A DNA stretch of 64,000 bases from Bacteroidota bacterium. Its GTDB lineage: Bacteria; Bacteroidota; Bacteroidia; 2-12-FULL-35-15. Position numbers and translations under genes: made by a program. Location of the stretch: positions 62,001 through 126,000 of the forward strand of contig JAOQAD010000012.1 of the NCBI GenBank assembly GCA_025963775.1. Reading direction: 5' to 3'. Positions 20,756 through 62,124 of the stretch are shown here, piece after piece (the first letter of the stretch is position 1; the number at the start of each line of letters is the position of its first letter). The notes below the pieces were generated by a model. The model made no database searches, was not told the DNA's origin, and saw only the letters and a list, made by a program, of their open reading frames with translations.

Positions 20756-20779
20756 ATTTTTATTTGTTTCTCGCATTTT

Positions 20780-21206
20780 CTCGCAGTACTTGTTCCGGTT
20801 TATCGGAAGACGCTGAGCACGCAGAGTTTTTATTGTTTACTTATTCCTTGCCTACTGCCTATTGCCGACTGTTATTTTTTCTCGCAGAGACGCAAAGCAC
20901 GCAGAGATTTTATTGTTTACTTTTTTATTGCCTGCTGCTTATTGCCAACCGTTATTTTTTCTCGCAAAGACGCTAAGCTCGCAAAGATTTTATTGCTTAC
21001 TTACTCCCTTGCCTACTGCTTATTGCCAACTGTTTATTTTTCTCGCAGCACTTGTTCCGGTTTATCGGAAGACGCAAAGCACGCAGAGATTTATTATTTA
21101 CTTTTTGCCAACTGCTATTCGCCAACTGTTATTTTTTTCTCGCAAAGACGCAAAGCACGCATAGATTTTATTGTTTACTTTTTCATTGCCAACTGTCAAC
21201 TATTAA
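20780..21206. repeat. Degenerate tandem array of CGCAAAGACGC-type repeats
   Basis: Five imperfect units of about 70-100 bp begin near 20780, 20880, 20960, 21041 and 21139. Each has TCTCGCA(G/A)AGACGCAAAG, then CACGCAGAGATTTTATTG, then TTGCCAACTG(T/C) runs. Units 1 and 4 carry the same 25-bp insertion (starting CTTGTTCCGGTTTATCGG). All reading frames across it give repetitive peptides of the SRKDAKHAE type, which I regard as non-coding artefacts. It fills the 518-bp gap between the DUF1295 and second Cfa genes. Confidence 0.8.
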
Positions 21207-21273
21207 GAGATTGATTCGGGCGAAGCCCCCGCAATGACGTTCCTAATTGCCTACTGATTCAGTTGCCAACTGC

Positions 21274-25360: not shown

Positions 25361-25580
25361 AACAGGCCGCTCCTACGGAGCCTTATATCTGTTTGCTCCA
25401 TCCTGTTTATAGTCAGTGCTCCGGAGGAACACATTATTAATTGCAAAAAAACATCTTCAACACCTTCAGAGCTCCGGAGGAGCGAATTGTTTTAAGACTG
25501 GCAGCAAGCTCCATAGGAGCTACCTGTTTGTAACACACTCTGTTCCCGCCTTTAATCAAGCTCCGTAGGAGCGGCCTGTT
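25361..25580. repeat. Cluster of GCTCCnnAGGAGC palindromes with a CTGTTT tail
   Basis: Copies occur at 25471 (GCTCCGGAGGAGC), 25508 (GCTCCATAGGAGC) and 25560 (GCTCCGTAGGAGC), and in the opposite orientation at 25369-25381. A truncated copy, GCTCCGGAGGAAC, lies near 25418. The palindrome is followed by three or four bases and then TGTTT in all oriented copies, so the unit is directional. The outermost copies (25361-25381 and 25560-25580) are perfect inverted versions of each other over 21 bases. Together with the preceding doublet they fill the 509-bp gap before miaE. Confidence 0.75.
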
Positions 25581-26715: not shown

Positions 26716-26742
26716 ATTGATAAACCGGATTTTATTCGTAAC

Positions 26743-26823
26743 GTCATCCCGTGCCCCGACACGGGATCTCACAAATGTTAACAGATTCTATTTAACAGGT
26801 CCTGTGTCGTGGCACGGGATGAC
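26743..26823. repeat. GTCATCCCG-type palindromic doublet (inverted pair)
   Basis: Left GTCATCCCGTGCCCCGACAC then GGGATC; right CCTGTGTCGTGGCACGGGAT then GAC. The arms are near-perfect inverse copies around a roughly 20-bp centre. It lies upstream of the thioesterase and just beyond the end of the SUMF1 gene. Confidence 0.8.
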
Positions 26824-26850
26824 CTAACTGAAAAGATTACAACGGAAGAT

Positions 26851-28595: not shown

Positions 28596-28964
28596 GTCAC
28601 TCTGAGCCTGTCGAAGAGTGTGTGCTGGCTTTTTTAGAGTTAAGAGATAACTGCGGCAACAATTCGTATTGTTCATTTATCAGTGCTTCTTTCTTTCTTC
28701 TGCTCCAGCCTTTTACTTGCTTCTCAAATGCAATAGCATCAATCGGATTATTGAATATTTTATAATATACAATTTTGAGAGGCCTCCTGAGAAATGTATA
28801 ACAATTCCTGTTTATCCCTTCCTCGTGGATCAGGAATCTCTTTTCAAGGTCATTTGTAACTCCTGTATAATAAGAGCCATCCGAACACTTAAGAATATAA
28901 ACATACATTGTTTTCATAAAATACATTTAAGGCTGCGCAAGGTCTTCGACAGGCTCAGACTGAC
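28596..28964 (-). mobile_element. Putative GIY-YIG cassette 1 with terminal inverted repeats
   Basis: Left end GTCACTCTGAGCCTGTCGAA (continuing GA, 28596-28617) and right end TCTTCGACAGGCTCAGACTG (continuing AC, 28943-28964) are inverse copies with one mismatch over 22 bases. They enclose only the GIY-YIG gene. The left end contains the gene's stop codon and its last residues (HSSTGSE). The same design, with different arm sequence, recurs at 46169-46581. Mobility is inferred. Confidence 0.6.
28597..28926 (-). CDS. Single-domain GIY-YIG nuclease (copy 1)
   Basis: A protein of 109 residues. YVYILKCSDGSYYTGVT (residues 8-24) is the GIY-YIG core in its VYI...YTG form. R30 and E69 (in AFEKQVKGWSRRKKEALI) are the likely catalytic Arg and Glu. 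It belongs to the small UPF0213/YhbQ-like group of DNA endonucleases, whose biological roles are mostly unknown. The C-terminal seven residues are written by the flanking inverted repeat. The ATG used (28926) gives MYFMKTMYVY; the ATG nine bases later is equally possible. A decayed copy of its 5' end lies directly upstream. Confidence 0.88.
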   Translation of the reverse strand: MYFMKTMYVYILKCSDGSYYTGVTNDLEKRFLIHEEGINRNCYTFLRRPLKIVYYKIFNNPIDAIAFEKQVKGWSRRKKEALINEQYELLPQLSLNSKKASTHSSTGSE

Positions 28965-28994
28965 AGCCGCACAAATTCTGTTGTAAAATCATAC
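28866..28994. repeat. Direct duplication, copy A (GIY-YIG 5' end plus inverted-repeat arm)
   Basis: This segment, from GIY-YIG codons for about residue 20 through the arm and ending AAAATCATACACC, is repeated at 28998-29134 with moderate divergence. Copy A is the intact gene end. Confidence 0.75.
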
Positions 28995-28997
28995 ACC

Positions 28998-29053
28998 CTG
29001 CAGAATAAAAGCCATCTGAACATTCGAAAAACATAAACATACATTGTCTTCAT
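28998..29053 (-). pseudogene. Decayed GIY-YIG gene start
   Basis: Reading from the ATG at 29053 gives MKTMYVYV, matching the intact gene's MKTMYVYI. After a single-base shift the frame continues CSDGFYSAG, matching CSDGSYYTG. The rest of the gene is absent. It is a fragment left by duplication of the cassette's 5' end and arm. Confidence 0.75.
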
Positions 29054-29134
29054 AAATTACACTGAAGCCTGCGCAAGGTCTTCGACAGACTCAGACTGAC
29101 AGCCGCACAAAATCCCGTTGTAAAAATCATACAC
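28998..29134. repeat. Direct duplication, copy B
   Basis: It repeats copy A in the same order: gene start, then GCGCAAGGTCTTCGACAG and CTCAGACTGACAGCCGCAC, then AAAATCATACACC. It ends 2 bases before the stop of the CapD-like gene. Confidence 0.75.
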
Positions 29135-35279: not shown

Positions 35280-36269
35280 ATGAAAAAAGTTTTTTTAGTC
35301 CTCATTGCCCTTGCACTTGCCTTTTTCTTTATTCCTTCGCAGGAGCCGGCATATTCATGGGGATTCTTCGCGCACAAGAAGATCAACAGGATGGCAATAT
35401 TTACATTGCCTTCCGAGATGATGGGATTTTATAAGCAGCACATCGAATACATCACCGAACATGCCGTGGATCCGGATAAACGCCGCTACGCCAACGAAGA
35501 TGAAGCACCGAGGCATTACATCGACATCGATCATTACGGCGAGTATGCCTTCGACTCCGTTCCGAAATTCTGGAAGAATGCAGTAAAAAAATATTCGGAA
35601 GATACACTCAAGGCCTATGGCATTGTTCCATGGCACATCGAAAAAATGGTGTACCGCTTAACGGAAGCATTCAAACAGGAAAATCTCGACCTCATCCTCC
35701 ACTACTCTGCCGACCTTGGCCATTACATTGCCGACTCGCATGTCCCGCTGCACACCACCGAAAATTACAACGGGCAGATGACCAACCAAAAGGGGATCCA
35801 CGGCTTCTGGGAATCGCGCATCCCGGAAATGAAATCGGATGGCTATGATTATTTTGTAGGAAAGGCAAAATATATTGACAAGCCGATCAACAAGGCATGG
35901 GAAACAGTGAAGGCAAGCCATGCCGCAGTGGATTCGGTCTTAAAATTTGAAGCGGCACTGAATGCAAAGTACTCCCCGGATAAAAAATACAGCTTCGAGA
36001 ACCGTGGTGCCACACTGATGAAAGTGTACTCGAAAGAATACACGGAAGATTATGATAAAATGATCGCGGGAATGGTGGAACGGAGAATGCGCACCGCGAT
36101 CATCACTGTTGGCAGCCTTTGGTACACCGCCTGGGTGAATGCCGGAAAGCCCGACCTCAACCGCTTTGGCAGCAAGGAAGTCAGCGATTCGTTAAAAAAG
36201 GCGAATGCCGCGGAGGAAGAACTGTGGAAAACGGGAAAGACGAAAGTGGTGAAGGGGCATGATGATTAA
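35280..36269 (+). CDS. Secreted zinc-dependent phospholipase C / S1-P1 nuclease-like protein
   Basis: A protein of 329 residues with a signal peptide (residues 1-26, ending PAYS). The mature N-terminus WGFFAHKKINRMA gives the Trp and His ligands of the trinuclear zinc site. These are followed by HYIDIDHYGEY (D and H), HYSADLGHYIADSHVPLHTT (H-x3-D, H-x3-H pattern) and HGFWESRIPE. The fold is shared by Bacillus phospholipase C and S1/P1 nucleases, so the substrate could be phospholipid or nucleic acid. It is probably periplasmic or secreted. It has its own promoter box and no clear operon partners. Confidence 0.85.
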   Translation: MKKVFLVLIALALAFFFIPSQEPAYSWGFFAHKKINRMAIFTLPSEMMGFYKQHIEYITEHAVDPDKRRYANEDEAPRHYIDIDHYGEYAFDSVPKFWKNAVKKYSEDTLKAYGIVPWHIEKMVYRLTEAFKQENLDLILHYSADLGHYIADSHVPLHTTENYNGQMTNQKGIHGFWESRIPEMKSDGYDYFVGKAKYIDKPINKAWETVKASHAAVDSVLKFEAALNAKYSPDKKYSFENRGATLMKVYSKEYTEDYDKMIAGMVERRMRTAIITVGSLWYTAWVNAGKPDLNRFGSKEVSDSLKKANAAEEELWKTGKTKVVKGHDD

Positions 36270-36271
36270 GG

Positions 36272-36327
36272 GATGTGAGATGTGAGATGTGAGATGTGAG
36301 ATGTGAGATGTGAGATGTGAGATGTGA
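36272..36327. repeat. Heptanucleotide microsatellite (GATGTGA)x8
   Basis: Eight perfect head-to-tail copies of GATGTGA directly after the stop of the zinc hydrolase gene. Such a run is prone to slippage, and it is outside any gene. Confidence 0.9.
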
Positions 36328-36333
36328 GAATGC

Positions 36334-36411
36334 GGCCTCAGAGAGGCCAAACATTTTTAGAAAAAACCATGAGTGATTAAAAACTTGCCCCAGCGGGGCA
36401 AAACATTAACC
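36334..36411. repeat. Two palindromes with an AAACATT tail
   Basis: GGCCTCAGAGAGGCC followed by AAACATTT (36334-36355), and TTGCCCCAGCGGGGCAA followed by AACATTAACC (36385-36411). The palindromes differ, but each ends in the same AAACATT tail. Matching units lie at 62811 and 62859. Confidence 0.7.
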
Positions 36412-36452
36412 ACCCCAGCCCGGCAGGAGGAACCGCTCTGTAAAAAAACTCA

Positions 36453-44991: not shown

Positions 44992-46104
44992 ATGAAAAAC
45001 GAACACACAGAAAATCAAACTATGGAAAATGCGCCTGAAAAGAAAAGCAAGAAAAAGCTTTTTATCATCGCGGGTGTTTTAGGAAGCGCGCTGATCATCG
45101 GCATCATTTATTTTATCATTGCTGCGGGCTATGAAACTACCGACAATGCACAGCTGGATGCCGACATTGTGCCGATCCGCTCAAGTGTTTCAGGTTATAT
45201 CAAAACCATCCACTTCAAAGACAATGAGCATGTGAAAAAAGGACAGCTCCTGGTGACGATCGATGATACCGACCTGAAAACAAAGGTAGCACAGGCACAG
45301 GCTGCACTTGAAAATGCAAAGGCAAACCTGCTTTCCGTAAAGAGTAATGCCAATGCGGTAAGCCAGAATGCGGATGCTTCGGTGCTGACTTCATCATCCG
45401 TTGAGCAGAATGTAAATTCCGCGAAAGCGCGTTTAACAAAATCACAGGAAGATTTCAAGAGGATCGAGAACATGTACAATGCAAAGGCTGCAACACAATC
45501 GCAGTACGACGCAGCAAAGGCTGAGCTCGACATCGCGAAAGCGCAATACGAAGGAGCAGTAAGCCAGTACAAATCATCTTCCGCACAATCGCAGGGAATC
45601 CGCTCACAGGCAGACGCACAGCAGGCGCAGATCACACTTGCAGAAGCACTGATAAAACAGCGCGAAGCTGAATTGGCATTAGCTCAAACGCAGCTCGACA
45701 ATGCAACAATTGAATCGCCATGCGATGGCATTGTGACCAGGCGTTCGGTTGAAGAAGGCCAGTATGTGACCATTGCACAGCCTTTGTGCTCCACGATCGA
45801 CAAAACACATTTATGGATCACTGCAAATTTTAAAGAAACGCAGGTAAAGAAAATAAAGCCCGGACAGGAAGTTGATGTAAAGATCGATGCATTCCCTGAC
45901 CTGAAGATCAAGGGAAAAGTGGAATCGTTCATTGGTGCAACCGGGGCAAAATTCTCCCTGCTTCCACCGGATAACTCCACCGGAAATTTTGTAAAGATCA
46001 TTCAGCGGATCCCTGTACGCATTGAACTGACAGAGTATCCGAAGGATGCAACCGATGAGCTGTTTCCGGGCTTGAGCGCTTTTGTTGAAGTGAATGTGAA
46101 GTAA
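44992..46104 (+). CDS. HlyD/EmrA-type membrane-fusion protein
   Basis: A protein of 370 residues. One membrane span (about residues 27-47) follows a basic N-terminus. The biotinyl-lipoyl-like domain holds TTDNAQLDADIVPIRSSVSGY, the EmrA signature. A long coiled coil (about 95-235, rich in Ala, Gln and Lys) precedes the second half of the lipoyl domain and TIESPCDGIVTRRSVEEGQY. It links the inner-membrane EmrB pump to TolC. It is followed in the operon by emrB, but a GIY-YIG gene and inverted repeats now lie between them. Confidence 0.93.
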   Translation: MKNEHTENQTMENAPEKKSKKKLFIIAGVLGSALIIGIIYFIIAAGYETTDNAQLDADIVPIRSSVSGYIKTIHFKDNEHVKKGQLLVTIDDTDLKTKVAQAQAALENAKANLLSVKSNANAVSQNADASVLTSSSVEQNVNSAKARLTKSQEDFKRIENMYNAKAATQSQYDAAKAELDIAKAQYEGAVSQYKSSSAQSQGIRSQADAQQAQITLAEALIKQREAELALAQTQLDNATIESPCDGIVTRRSVEEGQYVTIAQPLCSTIDKTHLWITANFKETQVKKIKPGQEVDVKIDAFPDLKIKGKVESFIGATGAKFSLLPPDNSTGNFVKIIQRIPVRIELTEYPKDATDELFPGLSAFVEVNVK

Positions 46105-46168
46105 TTTACCACTAAGTTCAAATGTGTAAGTCTGCTTCCCGACTCTGCTCGAAGTGACTGTAGAGCCT

Positions 46169-46581
46169 TGTCAGTTCGAGCGAAGTCGAGAACGCGCGAA
46201 AGCATAAGCGCCTTTAAAGATTGATGAAGCCATTAAAATTTTTGTACGTCTACATATTAGAATGCTCTGACAAAACCTATTATACAGGCGTTACCAATAA
46301 CCCTGAACGCAGGCTGGAGGAGCACAATTCCGGGAGCAACAAAGGCAGCTACACATCTTCAAGGCTTCCTGTAAGAATGATCTACTGCGAACGGTTTACT
46401 GATTTTGACCTTGCGATCAAATGGGAAAAGCGGATAAAAGACTGGAGCAGGAAGAAGAAAGAGGCATTAATAAAAGAGAATTGGGATCAGTTAAAAATAG
46501 CAGCCGAGTGTAAAAATGAAAGTTCTCATAAAATAAAGGCCAATACGCCGGCGCACGTTCTCGACTTCGCTCGAACTGACA
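46169..46581 (+). mobile_element. Putative GIY-YIG cassette 2 with perfect terminal inverted repeats
   Basis: Left arm 46169-46194 and right arm 46556-46581 are perfect 26-base inverse copies. In the left arm the sequence starts TGTCAGTTCGAGCGAAGTCG and ends AGAACG. They enclose only the GIY-YIG gene. The right arm supplies coding sequence for the protein's C-terminus (VLDFARTD). The cassette lies between hlyD and emrB, genes that normally adjoin, which argues for insertion. A diverged half copy (CTGCTCGAAGTGACTG) sits just outside the left arm. Confidence 0.75.
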
Positions 46582-46601
46582 GCCCGCAAGAGCCTGAATA
46601 A
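46221..46601 (+). CDS. Single-domain GIY-YIG nuclease (copy 2)
   Basis: A protein of 126 residues. YVYILECSDKTYYTGVT (residues 9-25) is the GIY-YIG core; R30 or R31 and E69 (in AIKWEKRIKDWSRKKKEALI) are the likely catalytic pair. Length and motifs match the UPF0213-like group, and it is clearly a paralogue of copy 1, though the two differ through most of their length. The last 16 codons run through the right inverted-repeat arm and 20 bases beyond it. It is transcribed in the same direction as the surrounding efflux operon. Confidence 0.88.
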   Translation: MMKPLKFLYVYILECSDKTYYTGVTNNPERRLEEHNSGSNKGSYTSSRLPVRMIYCERFTDFDLAIKWEKRIKDWSRKKKEALIKENWDQLKIAAECKNESSHKIKANTPAHVLDFARTDSPQEPE

Positions 46602-46615
46602 ATAATAATATCACA

Positions 46616-48193
46616 TTGGAAACAGCAGCACACATAAAACCCGTTTACCCTACCGGCGCCACCAAATGGATCCTGATCCTGACGGCGGTATCCTGCGCCA
46701 TTCTTGAGCTCATCGACACCACCGTTGTGAACGTGTCGCTACGCGAGATCAGCGGCAGCATTGGCGCCACAACAACAGAGATCGCCTGGGTGATCACCGC
46801 TTATGCGATCTCCAATGTGATCATCATTCCGCTTACCAGCATGCTCTCCGACCTCTTCGGAAGAAAAACATATTTCACTGCATCCGTTGTCATCTTCACT
46901 TTTTCATCGCTCATGTGCGGGCTCTCCACCAATCTCTGGATGCTTGTCTTCTGGCGCTTTGTGCAGGGTATCGGCGGTGGCGGATTATTATCAACCGCGC
47001 AGTCGATCATTGTCGGCGCTTTTCCTCCTGAGAAGATCAGCACCGCCAATGCGATCTTCGGAATGGGCATCATCCTGGGCCCTACATTCGGCCCGGCATT
47101 GGGAGGATTCATCACTGATAATTTTTCCTGGCACTGGATCTTCTTTGTGAACATCCCGATCGGGATCGTGGCAACCGTACTTGCATGGACCTACGTTACT
47201 GATATGGCCGGCGCAAAAAAACCGCGGAAGATCGATTGGTGGGGAATTATATTTCTGGTCGCGGCAGTGGGCTCGCTGCAGTTTGTGCTTGAAGAGGGCA
47301 CATCCAAGGATTGGTTCGAAAGTCCGGAGATCACTACCTTTTCTATCGTTGCCCTGCTTGGCCTGATGGCTTTCATTTACCGCGAGCTGCACATTGATTA
47401 TCCTGCAGTGAACATCCGGCTGTACAAAAATTACAACCTGGCCATGGGCAGCTTTATGAACTTCATGCTCGGATTGCTTTTATTCGGGACCGTATTTATT
47501 TTCCCTTTGTTTGCACAGATCTCATTGGGCTGGACCGCCACGCAAACAGGAACCTTCATGATCCCGAGCGCCCTGTGCACAGCTGTTTCCATGCCTATTG
47601 TCGGGAAGCTGCTGGGCTCCGGAAAAAATCCGAAGAGCATCATCCTCATCGGCATCTTTATCACCTTCGGCTTCCTCATGATGATGGCTTTTTCTTCACC
47701 TGATTCGAGCCAGAACGATTTTTATCTGCCGTTTGTGTTGCGCGGCGTAGGGCTTGCTTTTATGATGTCACCCATACTTTCACTTGCAGTTGCAGGCCTT
47801 CGCGGGAAGGACATGGCGCAGGCGATCGGGCTGGCGAACATGATCCGCCAGCTGGGTGGCGCAGTAGGCATTGCCCTGCTGAATGTTTTCCTGACGCATA
47901 AAAATGCAGAAGTAAGGGGAAGCATGCTTGGTTATGTCACGGATTATAACAATGTGGCAGCAGAGCGCATTTCAATGCTTACACAGAATTACATTTCAAA
48001 AGGCTTTGGCGCAGAGGATGCGCAGGCGCTTGCTTATAAGGGTATGGAAGGAATGCTCTACAGGCAGCAGGCGCTTGTGAGCTATGACCAGGGATTTTTT
48101 GCGGTAGGTATTTCCATTCTTATCTGCATCCCGATCGTGATGCTGATCCGTTATAAGAAAGGTGTTCCTGCGAAGCCGATTGCAGATCATTGA
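46616..48193 (+). CDS. DHA2 family (EmrB/QacA-type) drug efflux MFS transporter
   Basis: A protein of 525 residues with 14 membrane segments. It has LELIDTTVVNVSLREI (DHA2 motif D1), LFGRKTYFTASVVIF (motif A) and GPTFGPALGGFITDNFSWHWIFFVN (motif C), the antiporter signature. It exports hydrophobic drugs or acids through HlyD and TolC using the proton gradient. No ATG is found near the start; the only candidate matching homologues is TTG at 46616, 35 bases after the right arm of the cassette. This may mean the original start was lost on insertion. Confidence 0.92.
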   Translation: METAAHIKPVYPTGATKWILILTAVSCAILELIDTTVVNVSLREISGSIGATTTEIAWVITAYAISNVIIIPLTSMLSDLFGRKTYFTASVVIFTFSSLMCGLSTNLWMLVFWRFVQGIGGGGLLSTAQSIIVGAFPPEKISTANAIFGMGIILGPTFGPALGGFITDNFSWHWIFFVNIPIGIVATVLAWTYVTDMAGAKKPRKIDWWGIIFLVAAVGSLQFVLEEGTSKDWFESPEITTFSIVALLGLMAFIYRELHIDYPAVNIRLYKNYNLAMGSFMNFMLGLLLFGTVFIFPLFAQISLGWTATQTGTFMIPSALCTAVSMPIVGKLLGSGKNPKSIILIGIFITFGFLMMMAFSSPDSSQNDFYLPFVLRGVGLAFMMSPILSLAVAGLRGKDMAQAIGLANMIRQLGGAVGIALLNVFLTHKNAEVRGSMLGYVTDYNNVAAERISMLTQNYISKGFGAEDAQALAYKGMEGMLYRQQALVSYDQGFFAVGISILICIPIVMLIRYKKGVPAKPIADH

Positions 48194-48241
48194 TCCCGGA
48201 CTCATCGCTTTATCATCCTATATTCATTTCAATGCATCGTT

Positions 48242-48323
48242 GTCATTCCGAGCTTGCCCGAGGAATCTTACTCTGTGCGAAAGCCATGTTGGAATAAGAT
48301 CCCTCGGGCAAGCTCGGAATGAC
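48242..48323. repeat. GTCATTCCGAGC-type palindromic doublet
   Basis: Left GTCATTCCGAGCTTGCCCGA (continuing GGAATCTTA) and right TAAGATCCCTCGGGCAAGCT (continuing CGGAATGAC) are inverse copies around a roughly 25-base centre, the best-preserved member of this family here. It lies between emrB and the convergent DUF4258 gene, where it may also terminate both. Confidence 0.85.
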
Positions 48324-48364
48324 ACGCCACTCACCTCGAAGATCTGCAGTTATTTTAAAAGGAA

Positions 48365-56756: not shown

Positions 56757-56773
56757 GGTATTTAAACCGCAAT

Positions 56774-56882
56774 GTCACTTCGAGTGCGGAACGCAGTGGA
56801 GCGTATCGAGAAGTCGTGGGTACCCGACTCATTATTCTTCACAACACTTCTCGATACGCTCGTACCTCGCACTCGAAGTGAC
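56774..56882. repeat. Inverted pair of GTCACTTCGAGTG-type repeats
   Basis: The left unit starts GTCACTTCGAGTGCGGAACG and ends GCGTATCGAGAAGT (56774-56814). The right unit starts ACTTCTCGATACGCTCGTAC and ends ACTCGAAGTGAC (56846-56882), inverse orientation. The outer GTCACTTCGAG and CGAGAAGT are related to the ends of GIY-YIG cassette 2 and the solo repeat at 34421. No gene is inside. With the promoter box at 56960 it accounts for the 302-bp gap between the HD gene and lpxD. Confidence 0.8.
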
Positions 56883-56959
56883 ATTGCCATCATCTTCTTT
56901 TCAACCCAACATTGTGTACAAAAATTCCCCTAAAACAGCTATTAACCCAATAATTTGTA

Positions 56960-61138: not shown

Positions 61139-62124
61139 TGAGATTGAGAATCATTTTTCTGTACGTCCTTTGCCTGATTAACATTTCCGCAATTTATTCA
61201 CAGCATCCTTCTGACCGGGAGATCATTCTGAAGAATTGTATACTTCAAATGAAAGAGTATGAAGTTACTGACAGCTCGAGAACATTGACTGCTCTTTATT
61301 TGTACAATGACAGCGGATTGGTTTCAACTTACTACGATATAGAATTCAATGAGCAGCTTGCCGATACTTCATGCGTAACGTTTTCCTCCTATGATTCCGA
61401 AAACAGAATGGTAGTAGACTCTGCCTGGTATAAAAAGGAATCTGTTTCTTATGTAACCAGGTACAATTATCCAAAAGAAGATATAACAGCTATTTATTAT
61501 AAAGGGAACTCTTCAATCTACTATGATAAGGAGTATAGGAGAAAGAATCTGCAGATCAGGAAAAGATATAAAAACGGGAAAAAGTTCGAAAAGGAAAGAT
61601 CTCTTTTTATTGGGAATCATGAATTTTTTAAGCGTTGGCGGCATCATTATTATGAAAGATCAATATGCCTAATGGATAATGAACGGCGAATTGTAAGGGA
61701 AAAATACAAACAGAAAAAACACTTTTACTCTTATAAAAGACGGTACATTTCTTCAACTCATTATTATGAAAATGGTTTATTAATAAAGACGTTGACGACT
61801 TCAAAAAAGAATGGAATTCCTTTTGTACATGAATTTGAATACAAAAAAGGAATTTGTCTTACACCAATCCCCGAAAAACAAGAACCTTCACCGGGTTTGA
61901 CATCCTGGCCGATGCTTTCCTGCTACTGTGGCCTGAGCCAACATTTCATCTTAACAGGGGCAATCGACTGGTACCAGGACTTTAATCAACTATCACTCTC
62001 AGCACCGGATGATCATCGTTGCTTCCAAACCAGCGGGAATACGGGCATCCGTTTTGTAACCATGTGTCGAGAGTGGAAGAGTGCTCATCACTCTTCTGGG
62101 CAATGTGGTTACTTCATTGTATAA
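61138..62124 (+). CDS. AT-rich secreted protein of unknown function, with C-terminus from a decayed ABC ATPase copy
   Basis: A frame of 328 residues. The first 22 residues (MRLRIIFLYVLCLINISAIYS) are a signal peptide. Residues about 25-255 are rich in Tyr, Lys and Arg with MORN/YwqK-like turns (YLYNDSGLVSTYYD, then YYENGLLIKTL). DNA is visibly more AT-rich than the neighbours, suggesting transfer. From about residue 258 the frame runs through a decayed duplicate of the preceding ABC ATPase 3' end, so the true protein may stop earlier or be altered. Its ATG shares a base with the ATPase stop (TAATG). Confidence 0.55.
   Translation: MRLRIIFLYVLCLINISAIYSQHPSDREIILKNCILQMKEYEVTDSSRTLTALYLYNDSGLVSTYYDIEFNEQLADTSCVTFSSYDSENRMVVDSAWYKKESVSYVTRYNYPKEDITAIYYKGNSSIYYDKEYRRKNLQIRKRYKNGKKFEKERSLFIGNHEFFKRWRHHYYERSICLMDNERRIVREKYKQKKHFYSYKRRYISSTHYYENGLLIKTLTTSKKNGIPFVHEFEYKKGICLTPIPEKQEPSPGLTSWPMLSCYCGLSQHFILTGAIDWYQDFNQLSLSAPDDHRCFQTSGNTGIRFVTMCREWKSAHHSSGQCGYFIV
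61905..62086 (+). pseudogene. Degenerate duplicate of the ABC ATPase 3' end
   Basis: The DNA aligns with about 60950-61132 of the ATPase gene: CCGATGC...CCTG, ACTGGTACCAG, GTTGCTTCCAA, then ATCCGTTTTGTAA and GAAGAGT. Read in the ATPase-like frames it gives ADAFLLLWPEPTFHLN, AIDWYQ and NQREYGHPFCN, matching LADTPLLLLDEPASNLD, AINWYQ and NQQEYEYPFCN, with frameshifts and stops. The visible identity is moderate, so the duplication is old. Confidence 0.75.

Follow-up and report, generated by a model that had tools for sequence, protein, structure and literature searches.

Why does a gene for a small GIY-YIG nuclease lie between hlyD- and emrB-like genes in a Bacteroidota bacterium, and what are the perfect inverted repeats at its ends? 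Here, we analyze this locus in a window of 64,000 nucleotides (positions 62,001 to 126,000 of contig JAOQAD010000012.1, assembly GCA_025963775.1) and follow its nuclease and its repeats into other genomes. In the reading that we consider probable, the cassette is REPtron-like, i.e., a stand-alone GIY-YIG nuclease is encoded between members of its own TGTCA/CGTCA-tagged REP family and would mobilize those REPs. The locus is made up as follows.

44992..46104, + strand: hlyD-like membrane fusion protein gene, left neighbor
about 46135..46158, - strand: additional REP, degenerate, beyond the left arm (GTCA CTTC GAG.. ..GAAG; read by eye)
46169..46194, + strand: left arm, a REP copy with the TGTCA tag at its outer end
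46224..46601, + strand: GIY-YIG nuclease gene, 125 residues from ATG or 126 from the TTG at 46221
46556..46581, - strand: right arm, an inverted copy of the left-arm REP that overlaps the 3' coding end of the GIY-YIG gene
46616..48193, + strand: emrB-like MFS transporter gene, right neighbor (MFS_1, E 2.4e-56)

The preliminary description of this DNA proposed perfect 26-base inverted arms, and the two 26-mers are indeed exact reverse complements; their 24-base core has two sites in the window and none in 100 shuffles. The placement of the cassette between hlyD and emrB is likewise confirmed by open reading frames and Pfam. The protein was correctly recognized as a GIY-YIG nuclease (Pfam PF01541, E 5.5e-19), and a Pfam scan of it returned only this domain and no HUH tyrosine transposase. 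The arms do not fully enclose the gene as had been described: the frame crosses the right arm and reaches its stop codon at 46599-46601, 20 bases past the arm. The idea of a coding right arm holds for this gene but not as a general trait, as among 78 arm-bearing genes (a set that includes three tRNA-type genes with terminator-like palindromes, L069, L184 and L188, and the doubtful L141) only 20 have a reading frame that runs into the right arm. The degenerate third arm just beyond the left arm has the opposite orientation to it.

Are the arms the ends of a single element? In the source genome (a 3.33 Mb assembly, 65% complete), the arm core has 61 copies at up to three mismatches, compared to none for the reversed control pattern. 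Among 30 copies examined, 28 have their centers outside open reading frames of at least 100 residues, and several pair inversely with short spacers; REPINs are likewise inverted REP pairs with short spacers. In a script-made alignment of 36 copies, conservation extends from about 7 bases before GTCA to about 10 bases past the core. The arms are, therefore, two of 61 dispersed REP copies and not the element-specific ends for which they had been taken.

The source genome has 10 GIY-YIG matches, six of which make one subgroup. Reading the flanks by eye, we find all six subgroup genes flanked by REP-like repeats, of six different sequences. By an arm score defined as the ungapped inverted match (+1/-2) of left against right flank, with a threshold of 15, four of the six are arm-bearing (L031, L032, L035 and L037), while L033 and L041 fall below it with scores of 14 and 13. 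Two longer proteins with a GIY-YIG match, which from their sequences we take by eye to be UvrC (L038) and a helicase-like protein (L040), have arm scores of 9 and 8. L035 lies in the window in a second cassette (28596-28964), the arms of which belong to another family than those of the first, and the window also holds gene-less repeats. In the list, G014 is the closest relative.

26729..26837, no strand: gene-less REP dimer, GTCATCCCGTGC..CACGGGATC family, missing at the G014 site
28596..28631, + strand: arm of the second cassette, 3' of the gene, GTCACTCTGAGCCTGTCGAAGAG family
28597..28917, - strand: L035, the second GIY-YIG gene, whose final codons lie within the arm; absent at the site in G014
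28929..28964, - strand: arm of the second cassette, 5' of the gene
48241..48324, no strand: gene-less REP dimer with a long hairpin, TGTCATTCCGAGCTTGCCCGAGGAATC family (z -9.4)
56769..56887, no strand: gene-less inverted repeat pair containing GTCACTTCGAGTGCG, missing at the G014 site

Further repeats were seen in the window. The second cassette is followed at 28965-29120 by a partial repeat copy of the 5' part of its GIY-YIG gene plus arm, as judged by eye. Other repeat classes, namely CTCGCAAAGACGCAAAGCACGCAGAG-like units in tandem and a short run of GAGATGT repeats, occupy 20776-21262 and 36269-36452 in spacers that are short in G014. An unrelated inverted repeat pair of 26 bases (92%) lies at 25361-25386 and 25555-25580, 168 bases apart.

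Several comparisons bear out the expectation that related GIY-YIG genes are flanked by such arms more often than other genes. First, the arm score reached 15 in 20 of 80 loci of named genomes and in none of 960 intervals shifted within those loci. Second, 83 of 166 GIY-YIG genes scored at least 15 (11 of 177 GIY-YIG cores lacked full flanks and were left out) vs. 14 of the 721 other genes that these loci supplied as gene-aligned controls, for which Fisher's p of 1.5e-54 is indicative only, since the rows are related. Third, a later phylum-wide draw, in which one of 29 loci lay at a contig edge, gave arms at 12 of 28 GIY-YIG genes and 3 of 31 controls (p 0.006). Two observations count against mobilization by the nuclease: half of the 166 genes lie below the arm threshold, and the GTCA tag was recognized in six of the 12 positives of the later draw and not in the other six.

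The association is strong, and it is restricted to particular nuclease clades. In a tree of 156 domains (10 more short matches removed), which has few columns, rough inner branches and unsettled bootstrap, 38 of 54 and 37 of 62 genes of two large clades are arm-bearing, and so are none of the 30 GIY-YIG genes in a supported clade from candidate phyla, Proteobacteria, Planctomycetota and others. A nine-row tRNA-linked group has three arm-bearing members, through terminator-like palindromes. Moreover, similar nucleases tend to have similar arms (Mantel r 0.58 for 71 genes, a value that none of 2000 permutations reached). These data bear on the idea that intergenic REPs simply collect by chance next to whatever small, dispensable gene lies between others. 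In favor of this idea, REPs are frequent and for the most part lie outside genes, as the 28 of 30 copies illustrate, and several repeat classes sit in such spacers. However, it is opposed by the excess over controls (mostly ordinary genes, not small dispensable ones), by the armless clade, itself of small GIY-YIG genes, and by the agreement of arm type with nuclease similarity, and we give it very little credence.

A different GIY-YIG subgroup lies near tRNA genes (L036, L039, L069, L182-L184, L186, L187, L189 and L190). ARAGORN finds a tRNA in 10 of the 13 loci of this tRNA-linked subgroup, a tmRNA in an eleventh (L068), and a tRNA in none of five REP-type genes' own loci. In L036, tRNA-Arg is followed by the GIY-YIG gene and then by an apparent copy of the tRNA 3' end, an arrangement that looks as if insertion had taken place at tRNA ends.

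The arms share a tag and a hairpin shape. GTCA is present in 71 of 78 arm pairs, and 64 of 72 tagged arms carry it on the outward-tagged strand; the preceding base is T in 37, C in 23, G in 10 and A in 2 (n = 72). Many Bacteroidota arms consist of GTCA, a 4-base stem, GAG[CT], a loop, [TC]CGA and the closing four bases. Of the GTCA-stem-GAG[CT] sites near the nuclease genes, 152 of 178 have perfectly complementary stems, and among distinct stem pairs 25 of 45 are perfect, i.e., a fraction of 0.56 compared to 0.033 in 1000 shuffles (maximum 0.133). This covariation strongly supports a hairpin, although the window's own arms, as single strands, fold no better than shuffles (z -0.45 and 1.25), which we count against the preferred reading. 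Other arm families have stems of 8-9 bp with an unpaired tag; the tag is unpaired in four of five folded REPs, and the folded stretch of the fifth did not include it. Several families fit an 8-9 bp stem starting with AT and a loop of 4-5 (6 in L031). AT directly follows GTC in 40 of 72 arms, while the window's own family starts with AG and has a different stem.

REPs are more numerous in genomes that have the matching nuclease clade, with exceptions. We compared copy numbers in 36 genomes of the genus, with the cassettes' own arms included in the counts and with matching status taken from the protein tree, except for G029 (a broken copy, L181). The REPs designated P1 have 4-157 copies in the seven genomes with the matching nuclease clade (weakly supported at 89/75, and used without its starred four-row subclade), and 23 zeros and up to 66 copies in the 29 without it (p 1.8e-5). 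For P2, the numbers are 9-37 copies in five genomes with the matching clade and a median of 2, up to 40, in the other 31 (p 0.0011), and for P3, 9-84 copies in eight genomes as against 15 zeros and up to 23 copies in 28 (p 8e-5). The joint permutation p for P1-P3 of 5e-5 is the minimum possible with 20,000 permutations.

This relationship speaks against the main rival explanation, which is that a selfish GIY-YIG gene homes to existing REP dimers and inserts there, while another agent spreads the REPs. GIY-YIG is a classic homing nuclease domain, as passages of PMC1564403 describe, and target specificity would equally give agreement between arm and nuclease. Homing is also favored, and mobilization by the nuclease disfavored, by genomes that are rich in REPs without the matching clade: G003 (66), G007 (36) and G026 (26) for P1; G014 (40), G031 (26), G003 (15) and G021 (15) for P2; and G009 (23), G013 (20) and G034 (17) for P3. 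On the whole, we regard homing as unlikely. The genes described here share the catalytic domain with GIY-YIG homing endonucleases (PMC1564403), and would share with them selfish spread by cutting; by contrast, they are flanked by dispersed REPs. Pfam and NCBIfam scans found no intron, intein or extra DNA-binding domain.

The enzyme keeps its catalytic residues. All 78 arm-bearing proteins have Y, Y, G, H and E at the GIY-YIG positions, and 76 have the Arg; we take these to be the catalytic positions of the family. An AlphaFold2 model of the window nuclease has a mean pLDDT of 84.9 and a pTM of 0.68, and the nearest solved structures by both fold and sequence are UPF0213 (1zg2, 1ywl) and Slx1 (7cq2 and others), the latter acting on branched DNA. 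Our searches of the open-access literature yielded no REP link for UPF0213 and Slx1, and in that they differ from the enzymes studied here; the other stand-alone GIY-YIG clade that was sampled is the one without arms. Of 148 Bacteroidota genomes drawn, 76 have the subgroup at E <= 1e-20 and 72 gave no match at this threshold. A single genome can have as many as six paralogues of the REP type, and their arms differ.

The preliminary description anticipated an empty site in relatives. An EmrB match was present in 16 other genomes and the adjoining hlyD was readable in 15, among them L207 with a distant EmrB (40% identity); the nuclease gene is missing from the hlyD-emrB junction in all 15. There, the two genes are separated by 4-48 bases in 13 relatives, by 154 in G014 and by 180 in G018. 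G014 also lacks the second cassette and two of the gene-less dimers. The window and G014 are 74-88% identical over aligned blocks, mostly about 86%, and because this divergence is too high, exact junctions are unobtainable from the comparison. G014 has no GTCA-tagged target dimer at either cassette site of the window, which argues against homing; at about 86% identity, however, such a dimer could have been lost.

Similar nucleases mostly occupy different sites. Among 143 pairs of similar nucleases from different genomes (score ratio >=0.65), neither flank is common in 126, one in 7 and both in 10; at a score ratio >=0.85, the numbers are 10, 1 and 6 (17 pairs). Homing to a single conserved and uninterrupted target allele would fit the existence of gene-free sites, and less well the 126 pairs that share neither flank. 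These 126 pairs argue against a domesticated host function. In that case, REP hairpins in DNA or RNA would be substrates of the nuclease in maintaining the chromosome or controlling mRNA, and the cassette would be passed on along with its REPs. The intact catalytic residues, the predicted Slx1-like fold and the 10 pairs with both flanks retained are consistent with such a function, and the last, as cassettes that stay at one site across genomes, count against mobilization by the nuclease. However, the absence of a match in nearly half of the Bacteroidota genomes and the multiple paralogues with different arms speak against a host function as well, and we judge it improbable.

Target-site duplications were another expectation: in comparisons of direct and inverted flanking matches with shuffled pairs, five REP families gave no consistent signal (a sixth, with only 10 copies, was left out), which counts against mobilization by the nuclease. 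One of the five gave a z of 5.6, with copies mixed across genomes, an inverted control that was raised as well (4.1) and many offsets tried. Of the proposal that the cassette may be a one-gene minimal mobile element, the empty junction in relatives and the excess of arms at related genes are supported, while element-specific ends and a consistent target duplication are not, and no transposition event was seen. Paralogue pairs were also considered as a source of exact element ends and discarded. In G010, the homology of a pair that is 83% identical extends well past one of its REPs, and the pair in G174 apparently arose by duplication as an integron-like cassette. By eye, the latter genome has two copies (L265, L266) of a GIY-YIG gene with REPs within what appears to be an attC-flanked integron cassette.

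Do such nucleases accompany tagged REPs outside Bacteroidota? A tblastn search of plasmid records with the L031 protein matched 33 records, and of the 18 examined, which include near-identical strains (L211/L225, L222-L224), 13 have CGTC/TGTC-tagged hairpins beside the homologue, 12 of them on both sides; the other five have no tagged REP, which counts against the preferred reading. The tagged records include Rhizobiaceae, Azospirillum and Neisseria. In Azospirillum lipoferum 4B, the GIY-YIG gene lies between sufB and sufC with tagged hairpins, and in Novosphingobium aromaticivorans a CGTC-tagged arm pair was detected only by the inverted-match score. The repeats beside the Neisseria gonorrhoeae homologue are presumably dRS3. 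A related GIY-YIG gene on a Planktothrix agardhii plasmid (L212, 2989-3273) has no tagged REPs; its neighbors are an MmeI-type restriction enzyme and DISARM drmA.

The repeats themselves belong to a known landscape. Passages of Di Nocera, De Gregorio and Rocco (2013, PMC3733652) describe CGTC/TGTC-tagged REPs in five phyla, apparently without a dedicated transposase, and list dRS3 of Neisseria as a CGTC-1 member. As described there, this superfamily has an unpaired CGTC/TGTC tag, a palindromic stem, dimers and intergenic dispersal, and includes Bacteroidetes, and our repeats match it in their tag, covarying palindromic stem and many, mostly extragenic copies. They differ in two respects from what those passages report: the repeats here flank the gene of a clade-specific GIY-YIG nuclease, where no dedicated transposase was reported, and in many Bacteroidota arms a variable stem of 4 bp with an inner GAG..CGA takes the place of a plain 8-9 bp stem.

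The likeness to RAYT/REP systems drawn at the outset is apt. As far as passages of PMC3733652 and PMC8266576 go, RAYT/REPtrons also have one gene between inverted REPs, enzyme-specific REP families and many gene-less pairs; they differ in their enzyme, an HUH tyrosine transposase to which the GIY-YIG nuclease is unrelated, and in their tag, which is GTAG where ours is GTCA (see also PMC3116915 and PMC2817692). The cassettes thus match the REPtron in the placement of a gene between inverted REPs of the enzyme-matching family and not in the HUH tyrosine transposase gene or the GTAG tag. Might RAYTs nevertheless move the REPs, with the GIY-YIG gene as a passenger? The source genome does have three Y1 transposase genes. 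However, none has GTCA-tagged hairpins on both sides, one locus having a single weak hairpin, and passages of Di Nocera et al. (PMC3733652) report no tyrosine transposase gene between CGTC repeats. A RAYT as mobilizer in the source genome is, therefore, unsupported, and we consider this explanation highly unlikely.

Searches of open-access PMC, with subscription journals mostly outside their scope, found no link between GIY-YIG and REPs in titles or abstract openings among the matches listed, and searches with REP sequence strings gave only papers on other subjects among the matches listed. In the parts consulted, PMC9465073 names GIY-YIG, RAYT and REP element, with both genes merely tabulated, and RepRanger (2025, PMC12306157) does not contain the words GIY-YIG, RAYT or transposase. 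As far as open-literature searches reach, the repeats are, thus, already known and the GIY-YIG partner is new.

The association, its clade specificity, the agreement between arms and nucleases, the covarying hairpin and the gene-free hlyD-emrB junction in relatives are computational results. By analogy with RAYT, and given the Slx1-like fold, we infer that the nuclease cuts the hairpins and thereby spreads the REPs. It would recognize hairpin and GTCA tag in single-stranded or cruciform DNA, much as Slx1 acts on branched DNA, and may cut near the tag. Repair or strand transfer could then place copies of gene-less REP pairs, and occasionally of the entire cassette, at new intergenic sites. The nuclease would, in this way, be to CGTC/TGTC-tagged REPs what the RAYT tyrosine transposase is to GTAG-tagged REPs. 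Our findings suggest that a widespread repeat class, which was earlier said to lack a partner, has one in the GIY-YIG enzyme. We are more tentative, and on balance slightly doubtful, about the wider claim that GIY-YIG nucleases are the dedicated mobilizers of the whole CGTC/TGTC-tagged REP superfamily, including Bacteroidota repeats, alpha-proteobacterial REPs and Neisseria dRS3.

With a GIY-YIG partner that is specific to its clade and varies together with its arms, the question raised in 2013 (as posed in passages of PMC3733652) can be tested directly, and a single small protein and a single oligonucleotide would suffice. If our reading is correct, some genes annotated as "GIY-YIG nuclease family" or "excinuclease ABC subunit C" would be parts of a selfish repeat system, and GIY-YIG enzymes would have a new role. 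Under the wider claim, tiny non-autonomous bacterial DNA would spread by structure-guided nuclease cutting and repair, with no transposase.
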